The position numbers and the translations under genes were made by a program. Positions 12,712-33,455 of a stretch of 34,853 nt of DNA are shown here, piece after piece. Position 1 is the first letter of the stretch. Every line of letters starts with the position of its first letter. Source of the DNA: Candidatus Stoquefichus massiliensis AP9 (lineage in GTDB: Bacteria; Bacillota_I; Bacilli_A; Erysipelotrichales; Coprobacillaceae); the NCBI RefSeq assembly GCF_000455285.1, contig NZ_HG005288.1, positions 184,143 through 218,995 on the forward strand, written 5' to 3'. Under the pieces are notes generated by a model that ran no database searches, was not told the origin of the DNA, and saw nothing but the letters and a program-made list of their open reading frames with translations.

Positions 12712-14487
12712 ATGTATTATAGTCATGGTAATTATGAGGCTTTTGCAAGGCCTTTAAAGCCTGTTGGAGTAGACCAAAAGTCAGCATATCTAGTAGGAAG
12801 TGGTTTAGCTTCTTTATCAGCTGCTTGTTTTTTAATTAGAGATGGTCAAATGAAAGGTCAACATATTCATATTCTAGAAGAAATGGATTTACCTGGTGGT
12901 GCCTGTGATGGTATATATAATCAGGAAAAAGGATTTATTATACGCGGTGGTCGTGAAATGGAAAACCATTTTGAATGTTTGTGGGATTTATTTCATTCTA
13001 TTCCATCAATTGAAACAGAGGGTGTTTCTGTATTAGATGAATATTATTGGCTGAATAAAAAAGACCCAAATTATTCATTAATGCGTGCAACAGTCAATCG
13101 TGGTCAAGATGCCCATACTGATGGAAAATTTTCTTTATCTGATAAAGCAGCAATGAGTATTATGGAATTATTTATGACACCAGATGAGAAATTATATAAT
13201 AAATCAATTACTGATGTTTTAGATCCTGAGTTCTTTGAATCAAACTTTTGGTTATATTGGCAGACAATGTTTGCTTTTGAAACATGGCATAGTGCTTTAG
13301 AAATGAAATTATATATTCAACGTTTTATTCATCACATTGGTGGTTTACCAGATTTTAGTGCTCTTAAATTTACAAAGTATAACCAATATGAATCACTTAT
13401 TTTACCAATGATGAAATATCTTGAAAAACATCATGTCCAATTTCATTATCATACGCGTGTACTCAATATTGAATTTGAATTCAATCAAGATCAGAAACAA
13501 GCCAAACGTATCATTTGTTTACACAAAGGTGAAAGAGAGTCTATTGATTTGACTGAAAATGATTTAGTTTTCATAACCAATGGAAGTTGCACTGAGAATT
13601 CTACTTTTGGTGATAATGATCATGCACCTATTATGAATACAAAAGAAGGTGATGGTGGCTGCTGGCAGTTATGGGAAAATATAGCTAAGCAACATCCAGA
13701 TTTTGGTCATCCACAAAAATTCTGTGGAAACATTTCAAAAACAAATTGGGAATCTGCTACCGTTACAACATTGGATGATAAGATTCCACCATATCTTGAA
13801 AAGATATGTCAGCGTGATCCTTTCTCAGGAAAGGTTGTTACTGGTGGAATTGTAACTGTGAAAGATTCTCATTGGCTCATGAGTTATACATTTAATCGTC
13901 AGCCTCATTTTAAAACTCAACCAGATAATCAATTGGTTGGATGGATTTATGGTTTATACACTGATGTCCCAGGTAATTTTATCAAAAAACCTATGAAAGA
14001 CTGTACTGGTATTGAAATTTGTGAAGAATGGCTTTATCACATGGGTGTTCCAGAAGAACAAATCGAAGAAATGGCCACTCATTCAGCAAGTACTATTCCA
14101 TGTATGATGCCTTATATCACAGCTTTCTTTATGCCACGCGAGAAAGGTGATCGCCCTTTCGTTGTCCCTGAAGGAAGTGTCAATTTTGCATTTATTGGAC
14201 AATTTGCTGAAACTACTAGAGATACAATCTTTACAACTGAATATTCTGTAAGAACTGGTATGGAATCTGTTTATACTCTATTAGATATTGATAGAGGTGT
14301 TCCTGAGGTTTGGGGATCTTGTTATGATGTGAGAGATTTATTAGATGCAACCTCTAAAATGATGGATGGTAAAAAATTAGAAGATATTCATTTACCATTT
14401 ATTTATAAAGTTGTAGGCAAAAAAGCCCTCAAGAAATTTGAGGGAACCATGGTAGAAGAAATGTTACAAAGATATCATTTAATCTAA
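12712..14487 (+). CDS. ohyA: Oleate hydratase
   Basis: A 591-residue FAD-dependent oleate hydratase (MCRA family), full length. It adds water to the cis-9 double bond of oleic and related acids to give 10-hydroxy fatty acids. The FAD-binding motif is [19 protein letters not shown] (about residues 27-45), followed by the EEMDLPGG acidic strand. The [11 protein letters not shown] segment places Glu at residue 82 and Tyr at residue 201 (YIQRFIHH), the same numbers as the catalytic E82/Y201 I recall for the Staphylococcus aureus enzyme. The C-terminal [23 protein letters not shown] is also typical. A strong AAAGGAGG lies upstream. In hosts such enzymes detoxify unsaturated fatty acids. Confidence 0.97.
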
Positions 14488-16873: not shown

Positions 16874-16896
16874 GAAAAAAGTGTCTGAGACACTTT
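16874..16896 (-). terminator. Terminator of the metNIQ operon
   Basis: A perfect 8-bp stem, AAAGTGTC (16878-16885) with GACACTTT (16889-16896), has a 3-nt loop and a T run on the minus strand. It overlaps the last codon of metQ. Confidence 0.85.
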
Positions 16897-17716
16897 ATTC
16901 AACAACAATAACTGATCCTTTATAAGTTTTTTCAATAAATGTTTTCATTTCATCTGATTTTAAAACTTCAACTAGAGCTTTGATTTTCTCGTCATTTTCA
17001 TGTCCTTTTTGACATGCAACAATATTAACATATGGATTATCAGCATCTACTGATTCTAAAATCACTGCATCTTTTGTTGGATCTAATTTTGCTTGTAAAG
17101 CATAATTTCCATTAATTGCTACTAAATCACCTTCACCATTATTAAATGAAGTTGCTAATAAATCAGGTTTTATTTCAGTGAATTTTAAATTCTTTGGATT
17201 TGATGCAATATCTTTAACAGTTGCTTCCAATACATTGACACCATCTTTAATTGTGATTAATCCAGCATCTGCTAAAATAGCTAAGATTCTTCCATGATCA
17301 GCTACTGAGTTTGAAATAATAATTTCAGCACCATCTTTCAATTCATCTTTAGATTTGATTGTTTTTGAATAGAATCCAAATGGTTCAATATGAATGGCAC
17401 CAGCCTCTACAATTTTATATCCATTTTTTTCAACATCACCTTCAAAGAAAGGTCTATGCTGGAAATAATTGGCATCTACTTCACCACTGTTTAATGCTTT
17501 ATTAAAAATATAATAATCATCTAAAACCTTAATTTCTAAATCAATACCATACTTTTCTTTTAAAATTGGTTGTGCTTCCTTTAAGATTTTTTCATGTGGA
17601 TCAAGTGATGCAGACACGACTAATTTCTTTTCATCAGTTGAACCACTATTACTTCCACAACCTACAATACCTACTGTTAATAATAATACTAATGCGATTT
17701 TTAATAATTTTTTCAT
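16895..17716 (-). CDS. metQ: Methionine-binding lipoprotein MetQ
   Basis: A 273-residue NlpA-family solute-binding lipoprotein of the MetNIQ importer. The start giving MKKLLKIALVLLL follows AAAGGGGAAAAG. The signal peptide ends in a lipobox with C20 (TVGIVGC), which anchors the protein outside the cytoplasmic membrane. SASLDPHEKILKEAQP, the VLDDYYIFNKALNSGEVDANYFQH stretch and IHIEPFGFYSK are very typical. It captures methionine (D- or L-, or its sulfoxide) for MetI and MetN. It is the third gene of an operon headed by a T-box, and its stop codon lies inside the terminator stem. Confidence 0.95.
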   Translation of the reverse strand: MKKLLKIALVLLLTVGIVGCGSNSGSTDEKKLVVSASLDPHEKILKEAQPILKEKYGIDLEIKVLDDYYIFNKALNSGEVDANYFQHRPFFEGDVEKNGYKIVEAGAIHIEPFGFYSKTIKSKDELKDGAEIIISNSVADHGRILAILADAGLITIKDGVNVLEATVKDIASNPKNLKFTEIKPDLLATSFNNGEGDLVAINGNYALQAKLDPTKDAVILESVDADNPYVNIVACQKGHENDEKIKALVEVLKSDEMKTFIEKTYKGSVIVVE

Positions 17717-17730
17717 TTTCTTTTCCCCTT

Positions 17731-18396
17731 TCATCGCTTGTCAATTCTTTTGACAATGTAGTCTCCTATTCCCTGTATCACAAAGACAATAATCAATACA
17801 AAGAATGTTGCAGTATACATGACTGTCATGTTTTGTCTCGCAAAACCATACATGTAAGCCAAGTTACCAAGTCCGCCAGCACCGATACATCCCGCTACTG
17901 CTGTATAACCAACTAAAGATATACCCATAACTGTCATACTTGATATCAAAGCCGGTTTAGCTTCCGGAATCAAGACTTTGGTAATAATCTGCATATTGCT
18001 TGCTCCCATTGCTTTACTTGCTTCGATTGTTCCTTTATCTACCTCGCTTAATGCAATCATACACATTCGAGCATAGAAAGGAGCACTTGATATGATTAAA
18101 GCAGGTAATGCTGCTTTTGCTCCCAGCATCGTTCCAACTAAGAATGTTGTGACTGGTAATAAGATAAAGATTAAAATAATAAATGGAACAGCTCTTAATA
18201 GATTCACAATAAAATCTAAGATTCTATTGATAATCTTATTAGGAAATAAGCCATCATCCTTTGTAACATAGAGAATAATTCCTAAACCAAAACCTAATAT
18301 GACTGCCACCAATAATGAAAAGAATGTCATAAATAATGTTTCTTGGATTGAAATAATCATAGCATCCCAATCTATTTGACTTAAAAGTTCATTCAT
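17731..18396 (-). CDS. metI: Methionine ABC transporter permease MetI
   Basis: A 221-residue integral membrane subunit with five hydrophobic segments and the binding-protein-dependent permease loop (EASKAMGASNMQIITKVLIPEAKP, roughly residues 130-153), which docks on the ATPase. LLRAVPFIILIF and VGYTAVAGCIGAGGLGN are close to the MetI consensus. The ATG directly follows the metN stop codon, and its ribosome binding site, GGAGGTGATT, lies within the last metN codons. It forms the translocation channel together with MetN and MetQ. Confidence 0.96.
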   Translation of the reverse strand: MNELLSQIDWDAMIISIQETLFMTFFSLLVAVILGFGLGIILYVTKDDGLFPNKIINRILDFIVNLLRAVPFIILIFILLPVTTFLVGTMLGAKAALPALIISSAPFYARMCMIALSEVDKGTIEASKAMGASNMQIITKVLIPEAKPALISSMTVMGISLVGYTAVAGCIGAGGLGNLAYMYGFARQNMTVMYTATFFVLIIVFVIQGIGDYIVKRIDKR

Positions 18397-19416
18397 CTAA
18401 ATCACCTCCACAATCACTTGATAATCTTCAAAAACTTTTATGATTTCATCATATTCTTTTTGATGACCACCTAAAACATTGACAATTAAAACACCAAATG
18501 AACTATCAATTGTATTTGTTAAGTTACCTGATACAATACTTATATCTAAATCACTTTGTTTCATAACTTTTGAAACAATGGGCTGTCTTGATATATCTTC
18601 ATCAAAAGTTAATCTTAATAAAATACCATTAGGATAGATTTTCTTTAATGTTTCATTATGCTGACTATCATCTACTTTACTTGATAAGTCTCTAACAAAG
18701 CGTTTTGTAATATCATGAATTGGATGTTCAAATATATTTTTTACACTGGCTTCTTCTACCACTTGTCCTTCGCTCATCACTGCAATCCGATGACATATCT
18801 TTTGAACAACTTCCATTTGATGGGTAATCATAACAATTGTAATACCCAATTGTTTATTAATTTTCATTAATAATTCTAATATTTGTTCGGTTGTATCTGG
18901 ATCTAAAGCACTTGTTGCTTCATCACATAATAGAATTGTAGGGTCATTTGCTAATGCTCTTGCAATTCCAACTCGTTGTTTTTGTCCACCAGATAATTCA
19001 CTTGGATAAGCATTTTCTCTCCCTTGTAAACCAACAAGTTCAATTAACTCCTTTGCTTTTTGTTGTCTTTGTTCTTTAGAAACACCAGCTATTTCTAAAG
19101 GTAACTCTATATTCTTTTGGACTGTCCTTGACCAAAGAAGATTAAAATGCTGAAATATCATTCCTATCTTGGTACGTTTTTGACGTAATTGATCAGCACT
19201 TAGTTTTGAAATATTTTCATCATCGATAATCACTTCACCACTTGTTTGTTTCTCTAACTGATTAATAATTCTCACCAATGTTGATTTTCCAGCACCACTA
19301 TAACCAATGACACCAAAGATTTCACCATCGCGTATTGTCAAATTAACATCACGACATGCTTCAATATCCCCCTTATTGGTATGAAATATTTTTGTAATAT
19401 GTCTTAATTCAATCAT
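18397..19416 (-). CDS. metN: Methionine ABC transporter ATPase MetN
   Basis: A 339-residue ATPase. Two ATG codons in a row follow AGGAGGTTAAA; I take the second (MIELRHITK), which gives 8-nt spacing. The Walker A is GVIGYSGAGKST, the signature is ELSGGQKQRVGIARAL, Walker B is ILLCDEATSALDP, and the H-loop is VMITHQM. The last 80 or so residues form the NIL ligand-sensing domain found only in MetN-type ATPases, which binds methionine and inhibits transport (trans-inhibition). It heads metNIQ behind the T-box leader. Confidence 0.97.
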   Translation of the reverse strand: MIELRHITKIFHTNKGDIEACRDVNLTIRDGEIFGVIGYSGAGKSTLVRIINQLEKQTSGEVIIDDENISKLSADQLRQKRTKIGMIFQHFNLLWSRTVQKNIELPLEIAGVSKEQRQQKAKELIELVGLQGRENAYPSELSGGQKQRVGIARALANDPTILLCDEATSALDPDTTEQILELLMKINKQLGITIVMITHQMEVVQKICHRIAVMSEGQVVEEASVKNIFEHPIHDITKRFVRDLSSKVDDSQHNETLKKIYPNGILLRLTFDEDISRQPIVSKVMKQSDLDISIVSGNLTNTIDSSFGVLIVNVLGGHQKEYDEIIKVFEDYQVIVEVI

Positions 19417-19436
19417 CATTTTAACCTCCTCTAATA

Positions 19437-19688
19437 TAAAAAAACTCATCCTATCAAAAGGACGAGTCTATCACCCGTGTTACCACCTTAATTCATTGTT
19501 ATATCACTATAACAACCTCTTCGAGTACCAACATACTCTAGTACAATAACGGGTACGACCGCCATTAGCTAAATCAATTCACTAATGAAACTCCAAGACC
19601 ATCTTCATTTATTTTACCTTGTTCTTTTACACCACCCAAGAACTCTCTATAAAGGAATCCATAAATTACTCTTCTCTTCACTGTTGTT
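19437..19688 (-). promoter_or_regulatory. T-box leader (methionine) of metNIQ
   Basis: Read on the minus strand, the roughly 250-nt leader has the usual order: stem I with AGAGTAATTTA and AGTTCTTGGGTGGTGTAAAAGAAC, a specifier region with ATG triplets (AAATGAAGATGG), then the conserved antiterminator block AAGGTGGTAACACG near 19480, and last a terminator hairpin GACTCGTCC/GGATGAGTT followed by seven T (19437-19471). The bulge TGGT would pair with ACCA of an uncharged tRNA whose discriminator base is A, as in tRNA-Met. So low charging of tRNA-Met should permit transcription of the importer. Confidence 0.85.
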
Positions 19689-19694
19689 GATAAT

Positions 19695-21345: not shown

Positions 21346-22134
21346 TTAATCTCTAACCCTTTTTGTAAAAGTCGATACATCTTCAAAACCAATACGTTGG
21401 TATTCACTGATAACTTCTTCAACATGTTCTCCAACTCTATCACTGGTATGAGAATCTGTTCCTACAGTTATCATTCTTCCTCCTAGTTCATAATATCTTT
21501 GAACAATATTAAAGTTAGGAAATCCACATGTTTTTAAATCACGATATCCTGATGTATTCACTTCAATACCTTTTCCTTTTTTTATCAAAGTTCTTAAAAT
21601 ATCATCAATAATATCCTGATATAACTGATGATCAACATGTTTATCTTCATAAGGACCATAACGACAAATATAATCTAAATGTCCTAAACAGTTAAAACAA
21701 TCAAATGTTTGGACACATTCTAATGTATTTAAGAAAAATTCACGATGTGCTTCTTCTTTGTTTTTATTGAAAAAGAAAGCAGCTGGATCATAAAACTCAG
21801 TTTGATGAATCACATGAATAGATCCAATCACATAATCGTAATCATGAGCATTAACAAAGTCATTGATTTCATCAATATATTCAACATCCAATCCCATTTC
21901 TAATCCAATCTTTATTTTTATTTGATTAACAAATTCTTCTTGCAACTTTTGAAGTTCTAAAAAATACGCATCAGCATCTAAATCAAACGAACAATAAGGA
22001 TAATGAAAATCCTTATGATCAGTAAAACATATTTCATCTAATCCTTTATTAATGGCTGTGAGAATATGTTCACGTGGATTTGCTTCACTATCAGCTGAAA
22101 AATATGTGTGCATATGATAATCTATCTTTCTCAT
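21346..22134 (-). CDS. hisJ: Histidinol-phosphatase, PHP family (HisJ/HisK)
   Basis: A 262-residue PHP-domain phosphatase; the start (MRKIDYHMHT) follows GGAGGTAGTT. Metal ligands occur in order: DYHMHT (HxH), CFTDHKDF (DH), GLEMGLDV (E), VIGSIHVIH (H), CLGHLDYICRYG (H), and GTDSHTSDRVGEH (DxH). This complete set and the length fit HisJ-type histidinol-phosphatases, which convert L-histidinol phosphate to L-histidinol. The his operon 5 kb away has no phosphatase domain in HisB, so this gene is the likely supplier of that step. It stands alone under its own control. Confidence 0.88.
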   Translation of the reverse strand: MRKIDYHMHTYFSADSEANPREHILTAINKGLDEICFTDHKDFHYPYCSFDLDADAYFLELQKLQEEFVNQIKIKIGLEMGLDVEYIDEINDFVNAHDYDYVIGSIHVIHQTEFYDPAAFFFNKNKEEAHREFFLNTLECVQTFDCFNCLGHLDYICRYGPYEDKHVDHQLYQDIIDDILRTLIKKGKGIEVNTSGYRDLKTCGFPNFNIVQRYYELGGRMITVGTDSHTSDRVGEHVEEVISEYQRIGFEDVSTFTKRVRD

Positions 22135-22199
22135 AACTACCTCCAGTTTTCCCCATTCTATCATTTTTTAATACCTCTGAAAAGATATTATCAAATTCT

Positions 22200-26824: not shown

Positions 26825-27041
26825 AATATTGGTTCTCTTTGCGATTAATCAGCCAAACAACAATTAAAACGCAAATAATAGGTTCAGCAATAAGCAATGA
26901 AAAGCCACTCATTACTCCACTGCATATATCATCAATACATAAACTTTCAATCATAGGTGCAATAGCACTAAAATGAATCAATGTACATATGACCAATAAA
27001 CCAAATAATGTGAATACATATTTGGTAACCATATTCTTCAT
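26808..27041 (-). CDS. Small two-helix membrane protein in the his operon
   Basis: A 77-residue protein with hydrophobic segments at about residues 5-26 and 43-64, separated by a short loop with two Cys (SLCIDDICSG). I do not recognise a family. Its ATG shares one base with the hisIE stop codon (TAATG), which indicates translational coupling, and its end overlaps the GNAT by 17 bp. The tail (NRKENQYYDSIS) is charged. Because of its position it could be linked to histidine physiology, but it may simply be carried along. Confidence 0.7.
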   Translation of the reverse strand: MKNMVTKYVFTLFGLLVICTLIHFSAIAPMIESLCIDDICSGVMSGFSLLIAEPIICVLIVVWLINRKENQYYDSIS

Positions 27042-27685
27042 TAGTATTCTCCTCTTGTATGGAAATCTTTCTTATTTCCTGCAATTTGATGTCTTTCACT
27101 TAACTTCTTTTCAATATCTTCAACTGTAATACCTTGTTGATACATCAGAACAAAAGTATGATAGAATAAATCACCAATTTCACCAATGAGCTCTTCTTTA
27201 TCATTATTTTTAGCTGCAATGATTGTTTCACTGGCTTCTTCTCCAACTTTCTTACAAATCTTATCAATTCCTTGTTCTAAAAGATAATTTGTATAAGATT
27301 TTTCAATCGGATGGACAGCACGATCAGCAATCACATCATACAAATCATGAAAAATATTTTCTGATAAATAATAGGGCAATACTTCATTAAAGAAACATGA
27401 ATAGGTCCCTGTATGACAAGCAGCACCTATTTGTTCTACATAGATTAATAAAGTATCTTCATCACAATCTAAATACATGCCTTTAATATATTGAAAATGT
27501 CCTGATGTTTCTCCTTTATGCCATAATTCATCTCTTGAACGTGAATAATAATAAGTCTCTTTTGTTTCTAACATTCTCTTATATGCTTCCTCATTTACAT
27601 ACGCAAGCATTAAAACTTGTTTGGTTTGATAGTCCTGCACAATCGCTGGAACTAAACCATTCCCCTTTTCAAAATCTGGTCTCAT
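27041..27685 (-). CDS. hisIE: Bifunctional phosphoribosyl-AMP cyclohydrolase / phosphoribosyl-ATP pyrophosphatase HisIE
   Basis: A 214-residue fusion that performs steps 2 and 3 of histidine synthesis. HisI (about 1-105) has [31 protein letters not shown] and the zinc/Mg residues in [27 protein letters not shown]. HisE (about 115-214) has [31 protein letters not shown] and [14 protein letters not shown], the MazG-like helices that bind Mg. The ATG overlaps the hisF stop by four bases. Confidence 0.96.
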
Positions 27686-28449
27686 ATATTTCTCCTAACT
27701 GGTATTCCATGTTTTATACATTCTTCTTTTACCTGGTCAATCGTTGCTTCTCCATAATGAAATAAAGATGCTGCTAATGCGCCATCACAATTGGTTTCTT
27801 TAAAAACATTCACAATATCATCTATACCACCACAGCCACCACTGGCAATCACTGGAATAGATACAGCAGCAATAACTGCCTTTAACATTTCAATATCAAA
27901 ACCATCACGTGTCCCATCACGATCCATAGATGTTAATAAAATTTCGCCAGCTCCCAATGCTTCACACTTTTTCACCCATTCAATAAGATCTAACCCTGTG
28001 TTTTCTCTTCCACCAGCAATATAAACATCATAACCACTATGATCTTCACGTTGTTTGGCATCTACTGCCACAACAACACATTGTACACCAAATTCATCAG
28101 AAGCTTCTTTAATTAATTGTGGATTTTTAATAGCAGCAGAATTAACAGAAACTTTATCAGCCCCACTTGATAAAATCATACGGAAATCATCAAGCGTACG
28201 AATTCCTCCTCCGACAGTTAATGGAATGGATAATTCACTTGCACCTCTTTGAATCAAATCTTTGATAATATCACGTTCTTCATAAGTTGCTGTAATGTCT
28301 AAGAATACAACTTCATCCGCACATTGTAAATCATAGCGTTTAGCAATTTCAATAGGATCACCAACATCTTTTAAACCAACAAAGTTAACACCTTTGACAA
28401 CTTTCCCATCCTTAATATCTAAACAGGGGATGATTCTTTTTGCAAGCAT
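27682..28449 (-). CDS. hisF: Imidazole glycerol phosphate synthase cyclase subunit HisF
   Basis: A 255-residue (beta-alpha)8 barrel. It starts [23 protein letters not shown], with the catalytic Asp of CLDIKDG, and has [11 protein letters not shown], the phosphate-binding GGG loops ([17 protein letters not shown]), and [13 protein letters not shown]. It takes ammonia from HisH and turns PRFAR into IGP and AICAR. Its start overlaps the hisA end by 31 bp and has its own AGAGGTGATAAC site. Confidence 0.97.
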
Positions 28450-29156
28450 GTTATCACCTCTTTCAGATCAATCTTTCCTTCATAATAGGCTTTTCCAACG
28501 ATACACCCATAATAACCCTTTTCATTGACTTTGTAAATATCTGCTGCATCTTTAATCCCACCAGAGACAACAAACTGAAGAGAACTGTTTTGATAAATAT
28601 CTTCATATAAATCAAATGAAGGACCTGTTAATGTTCCATCTTTAGAAATATCAGTACAGACAATATATTGAACACCTATTTTTTCTAATTCTTTCAAGAA
28701 TTCTAAATAATGTGTTTGCGTATTGACGAGCCATCCTGCAGTTGCAACATAACCATCTTTCACATCTACTCCTACCACAATACGTTGTGGTCCATATTTT
28801 TGCAGTGCTGCCTTTAAAAATTCAGGATTTTCAATAGCCGCAGTGCCTAAGATAACACGATCAATCCCTATATCGTTAAGATATAAATCAACAGTTTTCA
28901 TATCACGAATACCACCACCTAATTCCATAGGAATAGATAATATATTTCTTATTTTTTGAATTGTTTCTAAATTACTTGTTGTTCCTTCTTTTGCCCCATC
29001 TAAATCAACAACATGTAAATAATCTGCCCCCATTTTTTCAAATGCTAAAGCAATATCTTCAGGTTGTGTTGAATAAACTGTCTTTTGCTGGTAATCTCCT
29101 TTATATAAACGGACAGCCTCACCATCTTTTAAATCAATAGCTGGTATTAATATCAT
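28419..29156 (-). CDS. hisA: Phosphoribosylformimino-AICAR ribotide isomerase HisA
   Basis: A 245-residue barrel enzyme, homologous to HisF. It starts [22 protein letters not shown] with the catalytic Asp in AIDLKDG, then [12 protein letters not shown] and [11 protein letters not shown], the second catalytic Asp and Thr region in [18 protein letters not shown], and [11 protein letters not shown]. It carries out the Amadori isomerisation before HisF/HisH. Start and hisH stop overlap by four bases. Confidence 0.97.
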
Positions 29157-29758
29157 ACAATCATCTCCTTAAAGGCAAGGAGAATTTGTTTTCCAACCTC
29201 ACCACTTTTTTCTGGATGAAATTGACATCCCATCACATTATCTTTAGCAACCATAGCTGTTACTTTCTGGCCACCATACTCACAATAAGCTATCAATTCA
29301 TCATCAGCTGGATAAGCCATAAATGAATGAACAAAATAGACATAATCTCTTTCTTTAATATTCTTCAATAGTGGATGATCTTGTTGAAAACATAATTCAT
29401 TCCATCCCATATGAGGAATTTTATCATCAACTTCCATTAATTTCACTTCACCCTTAAGAAAGCCTAACCCCTGTGTTTCTTTAATCTCTAAACCCTTTTC
29501 AAATAATATCTGCATTCCTAAACAAATGCCCAAAAGAGGAATACCTGCTTCTTTTCTTTCATTTAAAATATCAATCAAATCATATCTCTGTAAATTTTCC
29601 ATTGCAACAGGGAATGTCCCAACACCAGGCAAGACAATCCCATCAGCTTCTCTTATGATATCATGATCACGACTGACAATTGTCTGTACCCCAATTCTTA
29701 AAAATGCATTCTGAACACTTTTTAGATTTCCAACATTATAATCAATAATGACAACCAT
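29153..29758 (-). CDS. hisH: Imidazole glycerol phosphate synthase glutaminase subunit HisH
   Basis: A 201-residue class I glutamine amidotransferase. The N terminus VVIIDYNVGNLKSVQNAF is diagnostic; the nucleophile is C79 in LLGICLGMQILFE, and the His-Glu of the triad is in GCQFHPEKSG. It releases ammonia that is channelled to HisF. GGAGGAAATAAA precedes the ATG, 11 bp after the hisB stop codon. Confidence 0.97.
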   Translation of the reverse strand: MVVIIDYNVGNLKSVQNAFLRIGVQTIVSRDHDIIREADGIVLPGVGTFPVAMENLQRYDLIDILNERKEAGIPLLGICLGMQILFEKGLEIKETQGLGFLKGEVKLMEVDDKIPHMGWNELCFQQDHPLLKNIKERDYVYFVHSFMAYPADDELIAYCEYGGQKVTAMVAKDNVMGCQFHPEKSGEVGKQILLAFKEMIV

Positions 29759-29769
29759 TTTATTTCCTC

Positions 29770-30357
29770 CTATAAAACCCCTTTTGAAGATATAACCAAA
29801 TCCTTATTCTTTTCATCAATTGTAATCGCCTGTTTTAAAGCTCTTGCGAAGCTTTTAAACATAGCCTCAATAATATGATGTGTATTTTCTCCATAGACTT
29901 CTTGAATATGCAATGTCATCAATGCATTGTCACTCACTGCTTTAAAGAATTCTTTGGTCATTTCTGTTTCATAATTTCCTAGCATCATCATTGGTAATGT
30001 TGCATTATAGACAAGATAAGGACGTCCACTCAAATCAAGTGTTGTTGTGACAAGGGCTTCATCCATTGGAATACTCATTTGACCATAACGCATAATTCCT
30101 TTTTTATCCCCTAAAGCTTTTAAAATACATTTTCCTAAAACAATACCTAAATCTTCAACTGTATGATGACTATCAACTTTTAAATCACCAAAACAGTGTA
30201 CTTCTAAATCAATTCCACTATGAAAGGCAAATAACTCAAGCATATGATCCATAAAACCTACACCTGTATCAATAGTCGCTTCTCCAGTTCCATCTAGATT
30301 TAAAGATATGTGAATTTGCGTTTCTTTTGTTTGTCTATCAATTGTACATGTACGCAT
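29770..30357 (-). CDS. hisB: Imidazoleglycerol-phosphate dehydratase HisB
   Basis: A 195-residue monofunctional IGPD. The start giving MRTCTIDRQTKET follows GAGGAGGAATAAT; a TTG five codons upstream is not needed. Metal-binding and catalytic motifs are GFMDHMLELFAFHSG, DSHHTVEDLGIVLG, and THHIIEAMFKSFARAL. There is no N-terminal phosphatase domain, so histidinol-phosphatase must come from another gene; the PHP gene at 21.3-22.1 kb fits. Confidence 0.97.
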   Translation of the reverse strand: MRTCTIDRQTKETQIHISLNLDGTGEATIDTGVGFMDHMLELFAFHSGIDLEVHCFGDLKVDSHHTVEDLGIVLGKCILKALGDKKGIMRYGQMSIPMDEALVTTTLDLSGRPYLVYNATLPMMMLGNYETEMTKEFFKAVSDNALMTLHIQEVYGENTHHIIEAMFKSFARALKQAITIDEKNKDLVISSKGVL

Positions 30358-30358
30358 A

Positions 30359-31657
30359 TTATTCCTCCTCAAATCTGACAGCTACACTATTAGCATGAGC
30401 ATCAAGCCCTTCTAATTTAGCAAACTTCACGACATCATCTTTAAATGTTGATAAGACTTGTTGTGGATAGTAGCTGTAAGATGAATATTTAACAAAATCG
30501 TAGACTCCTAATGCACTATAAAATTTTGCAGTTCCACCAGTTGGTAAAACATGATTTGTTCCTGACATATAATCACCTAATGGTTCTGGTGTATATTCTC
30601 CTAAGAATATAGAACCAGCATTTTGAATGAGTGGTAATGTATTCATTGGATTTTCTACTAAGACTTCTAAATGTTCTGGTGCTAAATAATTGGAAACATG
30701 GAATGCTTCTTCAATATTATCTACAACAATCACACCACCATAATTTTCAAGCGACTCTTTAATAATGTCTGTTCTTGATAAATAACTCATTTGACGTTCC
30801 AATTCTTCATTCACTTGTGCAATTAATGGTGGACAAGTCGTCACTAAAATAGCACTGGCTAATTTATCATGTTCAGCCTGACTCATTAAATCAGCAGCAA
30901 TATATTTTGGGTTAGCAGTTTCATCAGCAATAATCAAGATTTCACTAGGTCCGGCTACCATATCAATATCAACCATGCCATAACAGTTTTTCTTTGCAGT
31001 CGCAACATAGATATTCCCTGGCCCAACAATTTTATCCACTTTAGGAATTGTATTTGTCCCAATCGCTACTGCAGCAACACCTTGTGCCCCACCAACTTTA
31101 TAGATTTTCTCAATTCCACAGACATATGCTGCAGCAAGGATTGTCGGATTCACTTTTCCATCTTTTTTAACTGGTGTAATAATAACCAGATTTTTAACAC
31201 CTGCTAACTTTGCAGGAATGGCATTCATCATAACAGTTGATGGATAAGTTGCGGTACCTCCTGGTACATATAAAGCAACATTTTCTAAACCACGAACGAT
31301 TTGTCCCATCATCACACCATTTTCTTTATATAAAGACCATGATTTATCTACCTGATGCTGATGAAAATCCGTAATTTGCTGTTTCGTACGTTCAAGAATA
31401 TGAATAAAATCTTTTCCAACACTGGAAACACCTTCTAATATTTCTTGTTTAGAAACAATAAACTCCTGTGGATCTTCAATCATAAAACCATCAAACTTAC
31501 GGCAATATTTCATTAAAGCCTTATCTCCATTTTTCTTCACATCTTCAATAATATCATTCACTGCATCATTGACTTGTTTAGAAATCTCTGCTTTACGTGT
31601 TGAAAATTTTACTGCAATCTCTTCATAATTTCCTTTAAAATCTAATCTCTTTAACAT
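30359..31657 (-). CDS. hisD: Histidinol dehydrogenase HisD
   Basis: A 432-residue zinc enzyme that oxidises L-histidinol to histidine in two steps with NAD+. Recognisable parts are ENVALYVPGGTATYPSTV, YKVGGAQGVAAVAIGT, DKIVGPGNIYVATAKK, DMVAGPSEILIIADE, DLMSQAEHDKLASAIL (His and Gln zinc contacts), and GDYMSGTNHVLPTGGTAKFYSALG. Length is normal. It follows hisG by 1 bp and precedes hisB by 1 bp. Confidence 0.98.
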   Translation of the reverse strand: MLKRLDFKGNYEEIAVKFSTRKAEISKQVNDAVNDIIEDVKKNGDKALMKYCRKFDGFMIEDPQEFIVSKQEILEGVSSVGKDFIHILERTKQQITDFHQHQVDKSWSLYKENGVMMGQIVRGLENVALYVPGGTATYPSTVMMNAIPAKLAGVKNLVIITPVKKDGKVNPTILAAAYVCGIEKIYKVGGAQGVAAVAIGTNTIPKVDKIVGPGNIYVATAKKNCYGMVDIDMVAGPSEILIIADETANPKYIAADLMSQAEHDKLASAILVTTCPPLIAQVNEELERQMSYLSRTDIIKESLENYGGVIVVDNIEEAFHVSNYLAPEHLEVLVENPMNTLPLIQNAGSIFLGEYTPEPLGDYMSGTNHVLPTGGTAKFYSALGVYDFVKYSSYSYYPQQVLSTFKDDVVKFAKLEGLDAHANSVAVRFEEE

Positions 31658-31658
31658 T

Positions 31659-32279
31659 TTATTCTTCCCCTTTCAGTCCATCCATTAATTGAAATATCTC
31701 ATCTTTTTTAAACTTTAAACTGACTTTATTCACAATCATTTTCGTTGAAATATCACTAATCTTCTCAATGACTTCTAAGCCATTCGCTTTGAGTGTTGAT
31801 CCTGTTTCTACAATATCAACAATCGCATCACTCAATCCAACAACTGGTCCTAGTTCCACAGAACCTTCTAATTTAATAATTTCAACATCTTCTTGCTTAG
31901 AACTAAAGTACTTTTTAGCAACATGCGTATATTTAGAAGCAATACGTTTTCTTCTTTTAAATTCTTTCGTTTTATATTCAGGATAAGCAGCCACTGCAAA
32001 ATAACATTTCCCTATCTGTAAATCCAACATATCATAATAATCATGAAAATCACTATCATCCAAAGTATCTTTACCAACGAAACCAACATCAACAATACCA
32101 TGTTCTAAAAAAGTTAAAACATCATTTGCTTTTGCAAATATCATTGATAAACCATCACTTGTTTCAATAAGTAATTCACGATCTTTATTGATAATCGGAT
32201 CCATATCAAAACCATTGGCTTTTAATAATTGACAAACTTGTTTTTCAATACGTCCTTTAGTAATTGCAATTTTAAGCAT
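31659..32279 (-). CDS. hisG: ATP phosphoribosyltransferase catalytic subunit HisG (short form)
   Basis: A 206-residue short-form HisG, which catalyses the first, committed step (ATP + PRPP). The start at [13 protein letters not shown] follows GGAGGAAGAAGCC and overlaps the hisZ end by 8 bp. Landmarks are [26 protein letters not shown], and [22 protein letters not shown] with the PRPP loop. The short form lacks the C-terminal histidine-binding domain of long HisG, so it needs HisZ for activity and feedback control, and hisZ is directly upstream. Confidence 0.97.
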
Positions 32280-33246
32280 TGGCTTCTTCCTCCTTTTCAA
32301 GAGCTTTTAAGATATGACTTAAATCATAGCTAAATCCTATGGCTGGAACATCTTTATGAAAATGACTCATTAAATGATCATATCTTCCTCCATTAATAAT
32401 GGGTTCCGCAGCATATGGTGAATATCCTTTAATCATAATACCCGTATAATATTTCATACTAGGTGTCATAGCCAAATCAAAACTAAAACATTCTTGACTC
32501 TTGACATCTAGTTTTTCATTTAAATCCTTTAATTCAATCAAAGCATCTTTTAACTCCTGATCTTGTATCATTTCAATCATTTGATTTAAGACAATAATAT
32601 CACCAAAACATCCAGGTAATTTGATTAATAATTCTTTTAAAGGGCTCTGTATATTTTTTCTTTCAATTAAAGACTGCATTGCAGAAATATCTCTTTTTTG
32701 TAAAATTTCTACGAAGGTTGAATCATCGACCAAAGTACATAAACGTTTATAAAATTTAGCTGAACTCATTTCAATCTTCACTTCTTTTAATTGTAAATAC
32801 TGCAATGTCTGCTGAATAATGCTTAAACATTCTAAGTCACCTTCAAAACCAGGTTTTCCTAACAATTCAATACCTGCCTGAAAAAACTCACTGCTTCTTC
32901 CTTTATGTCTTTTTTCTTTACGATAGACCTTTCCAAAATAAGCATATCGTTTCTCACCTTTTTCATTTTGACTGCTATAAAGTCGTGCTAACGGAACAGT
33001 AAAATCAGCTCTTAAAGCAACACGTTTTCCATCATAATTGATAAATTGAAACATTTTTTCTTCTTCAATCCCTATATCCATATCATTATATAAATCAACA
33101 TATTCAAATGAAGGCATCAATACCTCCAAATAGTCATGTTTATTAAAGACATCTCTTAAATGTCCTTCTATTTCTCGCAATGATGCAACATTGTTCATAA
33201 TCGCATCAATACTTTCTTCTGGTATTAAATATTTAAACTCTTCCAT
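32272..33246 (-). CDS. hisZ: ATP phosphoribosyltransferase regulatory subunit HisZ
   Basis: A 324-residue relative of histidyl-tRNA synthetase without the anticodon-binding domain. Start [12 protein letters not shown] follows AAAGGGGAATGACA; a second in-frame ATG two codons upstream is too close. Class-II motifs are [59 protein letters not shown] and the late [10 protein letters not shown]. It holds short HisG in the hetero-octamer and binds histidine for feedback inhibition. It is the first structural gene, placed 28 bp after the attenuator terminator stem. Confidence 0.95.
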
Positions 33247-33273: not shown

Positions 33274-33371
33274 GACGAGTCTTAATGACTCGTCTGTTTA
33301 TCCCTAAGTCATTAGATACACCCAAATTTAACATATGCAAAATGGGTTGTATCTATTATGAGATATAACCC
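33274..33371 (-). promoter_or_regulatory. Transcription attenuator of the his operon
   Basis: Read on the minus strand, the region after the leader peptide can fold in competing ways. Segment 33371-33362 can pair with 33353-33344 (GGGTT.TATC with GATA.AACCC, one mismatch). The latter can instead pair with 33324-33314 (AGATACAACCCA with TGGGTGTATCT, one bulge). Downstream, TAATGACT (33314-33307) is complementary to AGTCATTA (33290-33283), which overlaps the 5' arm of the terminator GACGAGTC (33294-33287). The terminator stem GACGAGTC/GACTCGTC (8 bp) is followed by ATTTTTTT. So antiterminator and terminator exclude each other. The exact switching order is inference. Confidence 0.82.
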
Positions 33372-33424
33372 TACATGCTCCAATGATGGTGATGAAATTG
33401 TATGTTTAAAATTGTTTTTTTCAT
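33371..33424 (-). CDS. hisL: his operon leader peptide with four tandem His codons
   Basis: A 17-codon reading frame, MKKTILNIQFHHHHWSM, ending in TAG. Four histidine codons (CAT CAC CAT CAT) are consecutive, which by chance is very unlikely in such a short frame. GAGGTGG lies six to seven bases before the ATG, and an extended -10 promoter lies just upstream. The stop codon abuts the first RNA pairing segment. Scarcity of His-tRNA would stall a ribosome at these codons and expose or cover the following segments. This is the classical design of his leader peptides in enteric bacteria, but the peptide sequence and RNA segments are not those of the enteric leader. Confidence 0.9.
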   Translation of the reverse strand: MKKTILNIQFHHHHWSM

Positions 33425-33446
33425 AAATACCACCTCATTTTTTACC

Positions 33447-33455
33447 ATTTTAGCA
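33447..33455 (-). promoter_or_regulatory. Extended -10 promoter of the his operon
   Basis: TGC-TAAAAT on the minus strand, 22 bp before the leader peptide ATG. A clear -35 is missing (T-rich DNA at the expected place), consistent with an extended -10 promoter. Confidence 0.6.

Follow-up and report, generated by a model that had tools for sequence, protein, structure and literature searches.

The window analysed here, a 34,853-nucleotide stretch of the genome of Candidatus Stoquefichus massiliensis AP9, carries on its minus strand a histidine operon with the gene order hisZ-G-D-B-H-A-F-IE, preceded by a leader element. The first gene, hisZ (32272..33246, minus strand), has TIGR00443 as its best match, below the curated cut-off; its start is probably the ATG at 33246-33244, and HisZ of relatives begins ATGGAAGA. 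Profile matches identify hisG, hisD, hisB, hisH, hisA, hisF and hisIE (27041..32300, minus strand). We noticed that hisC is absent from the operon and that a gene for a HisJ-family histidinol-phosphatase (21346-22164, minus strand) lies in the window but outside the operon; an oleate hydratase gene (12712-14487, plus strand; NF010584, 950 bits) is also present.

The leader, with all of its parts on the minus strand, begins with an extended -10 element, TGCTAAAAT (33455-33447), seen in the sequence without a clear -35; it is not listed by a simple promoter scan of the window, and a TRTGNTAWAAT-like element occupies the equivalent position in the leaders of relatives. A strong Shine-Dalgarno (SD) sequence, GAGGTGG (33436-33430), of which GAGGTG is kept in nearly all relatives' leaders, is followed by a leader peptide ORF of 17 codons, MKKTILNIQFHHHHWSM plus stop (33424-33371), recognized from the sequence and from relatives. 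Its putative sensor is a run of four tandem His codons, CAT CAC CAT CAT (33383..33394). The last of these, together with Trp, Ser, Met and the stop codon, makes up segment 0 (33372..33386), a partner of segments C and D. Segment A, GGGTTATATC (33362..33371), begins on the final base of the stop codon and forms a hairpin with segment B, GATACAACCC (33344..33353), which can pair with A or with C. Next come a nearly invariant ATTTTG (33338..33343), a possible pause site for RNA polymerase, and segment C, GGGTGTATC (33315..33323), a partner of B or of segment 0. Segment D, TAATGACT (33314-33307), pairs either with segment 0 or, as the antiterminator, with segment E, AGTCATTA (33290-33283), which spans the 5' arm of the terminator and its loop. 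The intrinsic terminator hairpin E:F, GACGAGTC-ATTAA-GACTCGTC (33294-33274, arms 33294-33287 and 33281-33274), ends in the T tract TTTTTTT (33272-33266). A preliminary description of this DNA had listed the extended -10, the ribosome binding site, the 17-codon frame with its HHHH and the terminator before hisZ; all are present, at the positions that it gave.

Folding of the leader region was more stable than that of 200/200 shuffles (z -4.7), and the window holds 2 terminator-like sites, a single palindrome read on both strands, vs. 0.1 expected. There is a single CAYCAYCAYCAY, the run of four His codons, in the window. As 0.13 occurrences are expected there by chance, the run by itself would be weak evidence; the strong evidence is its retention upstream of hisZ in all relatives. 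Two other pairings were rejected: an extension of B:C into D in the window's minimum-energy fold is not retained in relatives, and a conserved C:D hairpin of the enteric type was found, by eye, in a few species only. In addition, the SD (33430-33436) can pair with the His codons (33383-33394) via GGUG/CACC, a pairing computed to be stronger with the native His codons than with their average synonyms, and one that might limit re-initiation at the leader.

A search for HisZ in 60 related genomes located the leader frame at the equivalent place in 30/30 of the nearest hisZ loci, with the full His run in 29/30, and revealed compensatory changes in D:E, B:C and E:F. A covariance model built from the relatives' elements and run against the family genomes, which as relatives are not independent samples, recovered the element in 39/43, always as one copy per genome and always before hisZ, with no other operon in these genomes carrying it at the threshold used. 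Three of the four genomes lacking the element (G002, G009, G012) also lack a true hisZ match, and the fourth (G063) is fragmented. Among 395 genomes sampled evenly from the class, the element was confined to the family except for 3 weaker true matches in one other family; weak model matches outside hisZ contexts (L070-L073) look like chance terminators. Tandem runs of 3-5 His codons occur in 38/39 family leaders. Among individual loci, L012 (G014) has its leader cut down to HRH with the stop codon lost (MKIINLFKQLHRHWTTEGYI) and the RNA pairings kept, suggestive at the sequence level of a decaying or altered sensor; at L035 (G034:C1:1950898-1951859) the leader is intact and hisZ carries several stops and a frame change that break it; L022 (G036) has ~100 additional bases from the terminator to hisZ.

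In the relatives' alignment, three pairs of the E:F terminator are changed on both sides, amounting to 19 such cells. For B:C and D:E together there are 5 compensatory pairs in 8 cells, compared with 1.6 when shuffled and 0 when slid by 1-2 columns; those of B:C include A-U, G-C and U-A types, and those of D:E, seen in L027 and L028, include G-C/A-U and U-A/C-G, with a further D:E variant, CTAATAAC/GTTATTAG, in L064. The antiterminator that had been proposed from the sequence alone (33307-33314 with 33283-33290, overlapping the 5' arm of the terminator) is therefore borne out by complementarity as well as by compensatory changes in relatives; terminator and antiterminator are mutually exclusive, and both carry such changes. 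The A:B hairpin, which begins on the stop codon, hardly varies among relatives and hence provides no covariation test. With compensatory changes in three helices, and an element found only before hisZ and once per genome, it is extremely unlikely that the leader is constitutive, with a terminator placed between the upstream gene and hisZ and pairings due to chance, even if a terminator alone could give a basal level of expression. The same alignment bears on whether the leader binds a factor, be it a protein or a small molecule, with the His-rich frame being incidental. Non-coding parts, GATACARCCCATTTTG and GGGTGTATCTAATGA, are indeed conserved beyond the need for base pairing; however, the conservation of B and C is explained by each being in two helices, His runs are present in 38/39 family leaders as well as in unrelated lineages with diverged RNA, the SD is strong, the spacing is fixed and there is no Rfam family match, making a factor-binding leader highly improbable.

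How a ribosome in the His run would act on these helices depends on geometry. In 34/39 leaders, 14 nt separate the last His codon from A, and because A starts at the stop codon, a ribosome stalled in the run leaves A free. It is conceivable that the choice between A:B and B:C, which are both conserved and mutually exclusive, is by itself the switch, with the position of the ribosome deciding between them and B:C stabilizing D:E by adjacent stacking, an arrangement that is feasible since C and D are contiguous. However, a ribosome in the His run, by leaving A free, would favor A:B, which is the wrong sign, and the conserved Trp-x-x codons and the synonymous codon bias described below would go unexplained. 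We thus rejected A:B/B:C as the sole switch on geometry and regard it as improbable.

The strand that would resolve this geometry lies in the ORF itself. The pairings in the preliminary description are all present, but it had missed the tail of the ORF (33386-33372, segment 0), so that sensing by a stalled ribosome was left unexplained. Segment 0 is complementary to C+D and forms a duplex of 12-15 bp in most relatives, with a mean of -13.2 kcal/mol vs. -7.0 for shuffled sequences, -4.4 for upstream 21-mers and -11.7 for swaps between species. In a swap test limited to a single leader from each of 16 genera, the difference of own from swapped duplexes was -2.1 kcal/mol (median permutation p 0.002). 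Native codons exceeded the mean of their synonyms for 0:CD pairing in 37/38 leaders, a bias that would explain the otherwise odd conservation of the Trp codon. Examples of co-adapted strands are GGATCATCTA with GGGATGTATC (L022), GGATACGGTA with GGGTTGTATC (L074) and GGAACACTTA with GGGTGTATC (L010). Masking of segment 0, in leaders trimmed so as to start there, raised the mean probability predicted for D:E: at equilibrium it went from 0.36 to 0.70 and, with A:B formed beforehand, from 0.41 to 0.87, the shift being upward in 11-12/16 genera; this is the sign expected of a stalled ribosome leading to antitermination and read-through. The shift was smaller (0.41 to 0.58) with the leader folded whole from its start, results were mixed when ribosome positions were included in equilibrium folds of the complete leader, and in L016, L027 and L028 the equilibrium shift went in the wrong direction. 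Several relatives, L026 and L064 among them, are without a good 0:CD duplex. In the window's own leader, this ORF-located competitor of the antiterminator is weak (-12.2 kcal/mol), since Ser-Met, which replaces Asn-Thr, contributes G.U pairs, and 0:CD has an ensemble weight of 0-0.05 vs. 0.64 in the sister species L002; accordingly, the claim for the window draws more on homology than on folding.

Given these data, we consider it very likely, from sequence and folding models, that the leader is a ribosome-mediated four-strand attenuator of the trp type that senses charged tRNA-His and controls hisZGDBHAF(IE), and that it very probably would switch on the histidine-making genes when histidine is short. 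The scheme builds on the segments, their conservation, the compensatory changes in D:E, B:C and E:F, the co-adaptation of 0 and CD and the predicted D:E shift upon masking of 0; ribosome stalling and termination themselves we infer. Strand 1 would be segment 0, strand 2 C+D, strand 3 E and strand 4 F. With enough histidine, the ribosome would complete the leader and depart, whereupon 0 would pair with CD, enclosing the small A:B hairpin; this would leave E free for F, the terminator would form and transcription would stop. With histidine short, the ribosome would stall on the His codons and cover segment 0, whereupon C may pair with B and D with E, and since the terminator cannot form once D:E and B:C have done so, hiding of segment 0 by the stalled ribosome would lead to read-through and transcription of the operon. 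We surmise that the A:B hairpin and its ATTTTG tail may act as a pause that synchronizes polymerase and ribosome. Conservation, covariation, codon choice and folding all lend good support to interpreting the element as a His-codon leader-peptide attenuator, which the preliminary description had already favored.

The proposed logic resembles known attenuators to different degrees. The E. coli trp attenuator follows the four-strand logic 1:2, 2:3, 3:4, and the leader here would share it; in contrast to trp, a small A:B hairpin sits inside the 1:2 loop, with B as a second partner of strand 2. In the enterobacterial his leader, seven His codons are themselves inside the first pairing strand. That leader (RF00514) also combines a run of His codons with alternative pairings and an intrinsic terminator, but there is no sequence or covariance match between the two: an Rfam search of our leader with E up to 10 returned chance matches only, with no match to His_leader RF00514 even at E 10.

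The preliminary description was not aware of a described leader of this sequence; leaders of this kind have, however, been reported. Naville and Gautheret (2010; PMC2965389) described His leader peptides before hisZ and hisS paralogues in bacilli, which, likened by description rather than by sequence, share with ours a His-run frame before hisZ in Firmicutes. For six Erysipelotrichales (genera Eggerthia, Erysipelatoclostridium, Catenibacterium, Coprobacillus and [Clostridium]), five Eubacteriales and six species of the B. cereus group, Ashniev et al. (2022; PMC9413887) list candidate RNA attenuators whose leaders, rich in His, precede the his operons; Peptostreptococcaceae/Lutispora are among the groups named, and RF00514 was not found in Firmicutes in that study. 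Likened by description, the reported attenuators agree with ours in order (by all signs), in operon, in having 3-5 His codons immediately 5' of the attenuator and in having a terminator with alternative antiterminator hairpins, and the genera fit as well. The leader of the window would therefore be a further example of the reported kind or possibly one of the species listed in that paper. What differs is the number of genomes (39 here vs. 6) and the test of each helix; worked out here are the pairing scheme including 0:CD and the wider spread. Across a whole family of Bacillota, the his operon would have histidine attenuation of the textbook enteric style as its standard control.

This control contrasts with that by T-boxes, which respond to uncharged tRNA and which the sister family uses before hisZ (5/5 loci inspected). 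A covariance search of the window for T-boxes (RF00230) gave no match in the his leader; the sole match (19455-19690, minus strand) is the T-box that had already been proposed before metN-metI-metQ (18397-19449, 17731-18396, 16895-17734). The genome of the window has 20 T-boxes over the cut-off, one of which lies directly before hisS (L176:647-831; G000:C2:109546-109730, minus strand) with CAC in its specifier region, and tRNA-His is thus probably sensed by two RNA mechanisms in one genome. The coexistence of two tRNA-sensing strategies, claimed earlier from the met T-box, accordingly holds more sharply. A HisR homologue was not found in this genome, in line with Ashniev et al. (PMC9413887). 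With the sister family relying on T-boxes for its his operon, and the window's genome on one for hisS, the difference in control between the two families provides a case in which a change from one tRNA sensor to another can be tested directly.

When named genomes were searched with the other family's HisZ, the matches extended to Candidatus Izimaplasma, Acholeplasmataceae, Peloplasma, Lutispora and Terrisporobacter, and a His-run leader was present at all 31 best loci (L111-L141). Nine of these best 31 (L111, L112, L113, L124, L126, L127, L128, L134 and L138, in Izimaplasma/Mollicutes-type MAGs) have upstream of hisZ a pair of complete attenuators placed one after the other, and both members of the pair possess a His-run ORF and a terminator of their own. 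We are inclined to believe that in these MAGs the two serial His-leader attenuators constitute a two-stage tRNA sensor, and that pairing of the ORF with the antiterminator strand across a built-in hairpin is lineage-wide; the serial arrangement in Izimaplasma-type genomes would then be a natural two-stage attenuator. In the part of the literature searched, we found no description of serial leader-peptide attenuators for an amino-acid operon; Salmonella mgtCBR has tandem attenuators, which respond to other signals. In other lineages, the match to the C strand again lies in the leader ORF but in other parts of it, as in CACTTATGCA/TGCATAAGTG (L068), ATTATATAAAC/GTTTATATAAT (L069) and CATCATAGA.CCAAG/CTTGTATCTATGATG (L140); several such matches extend over 10-14 bases with no mismatch.
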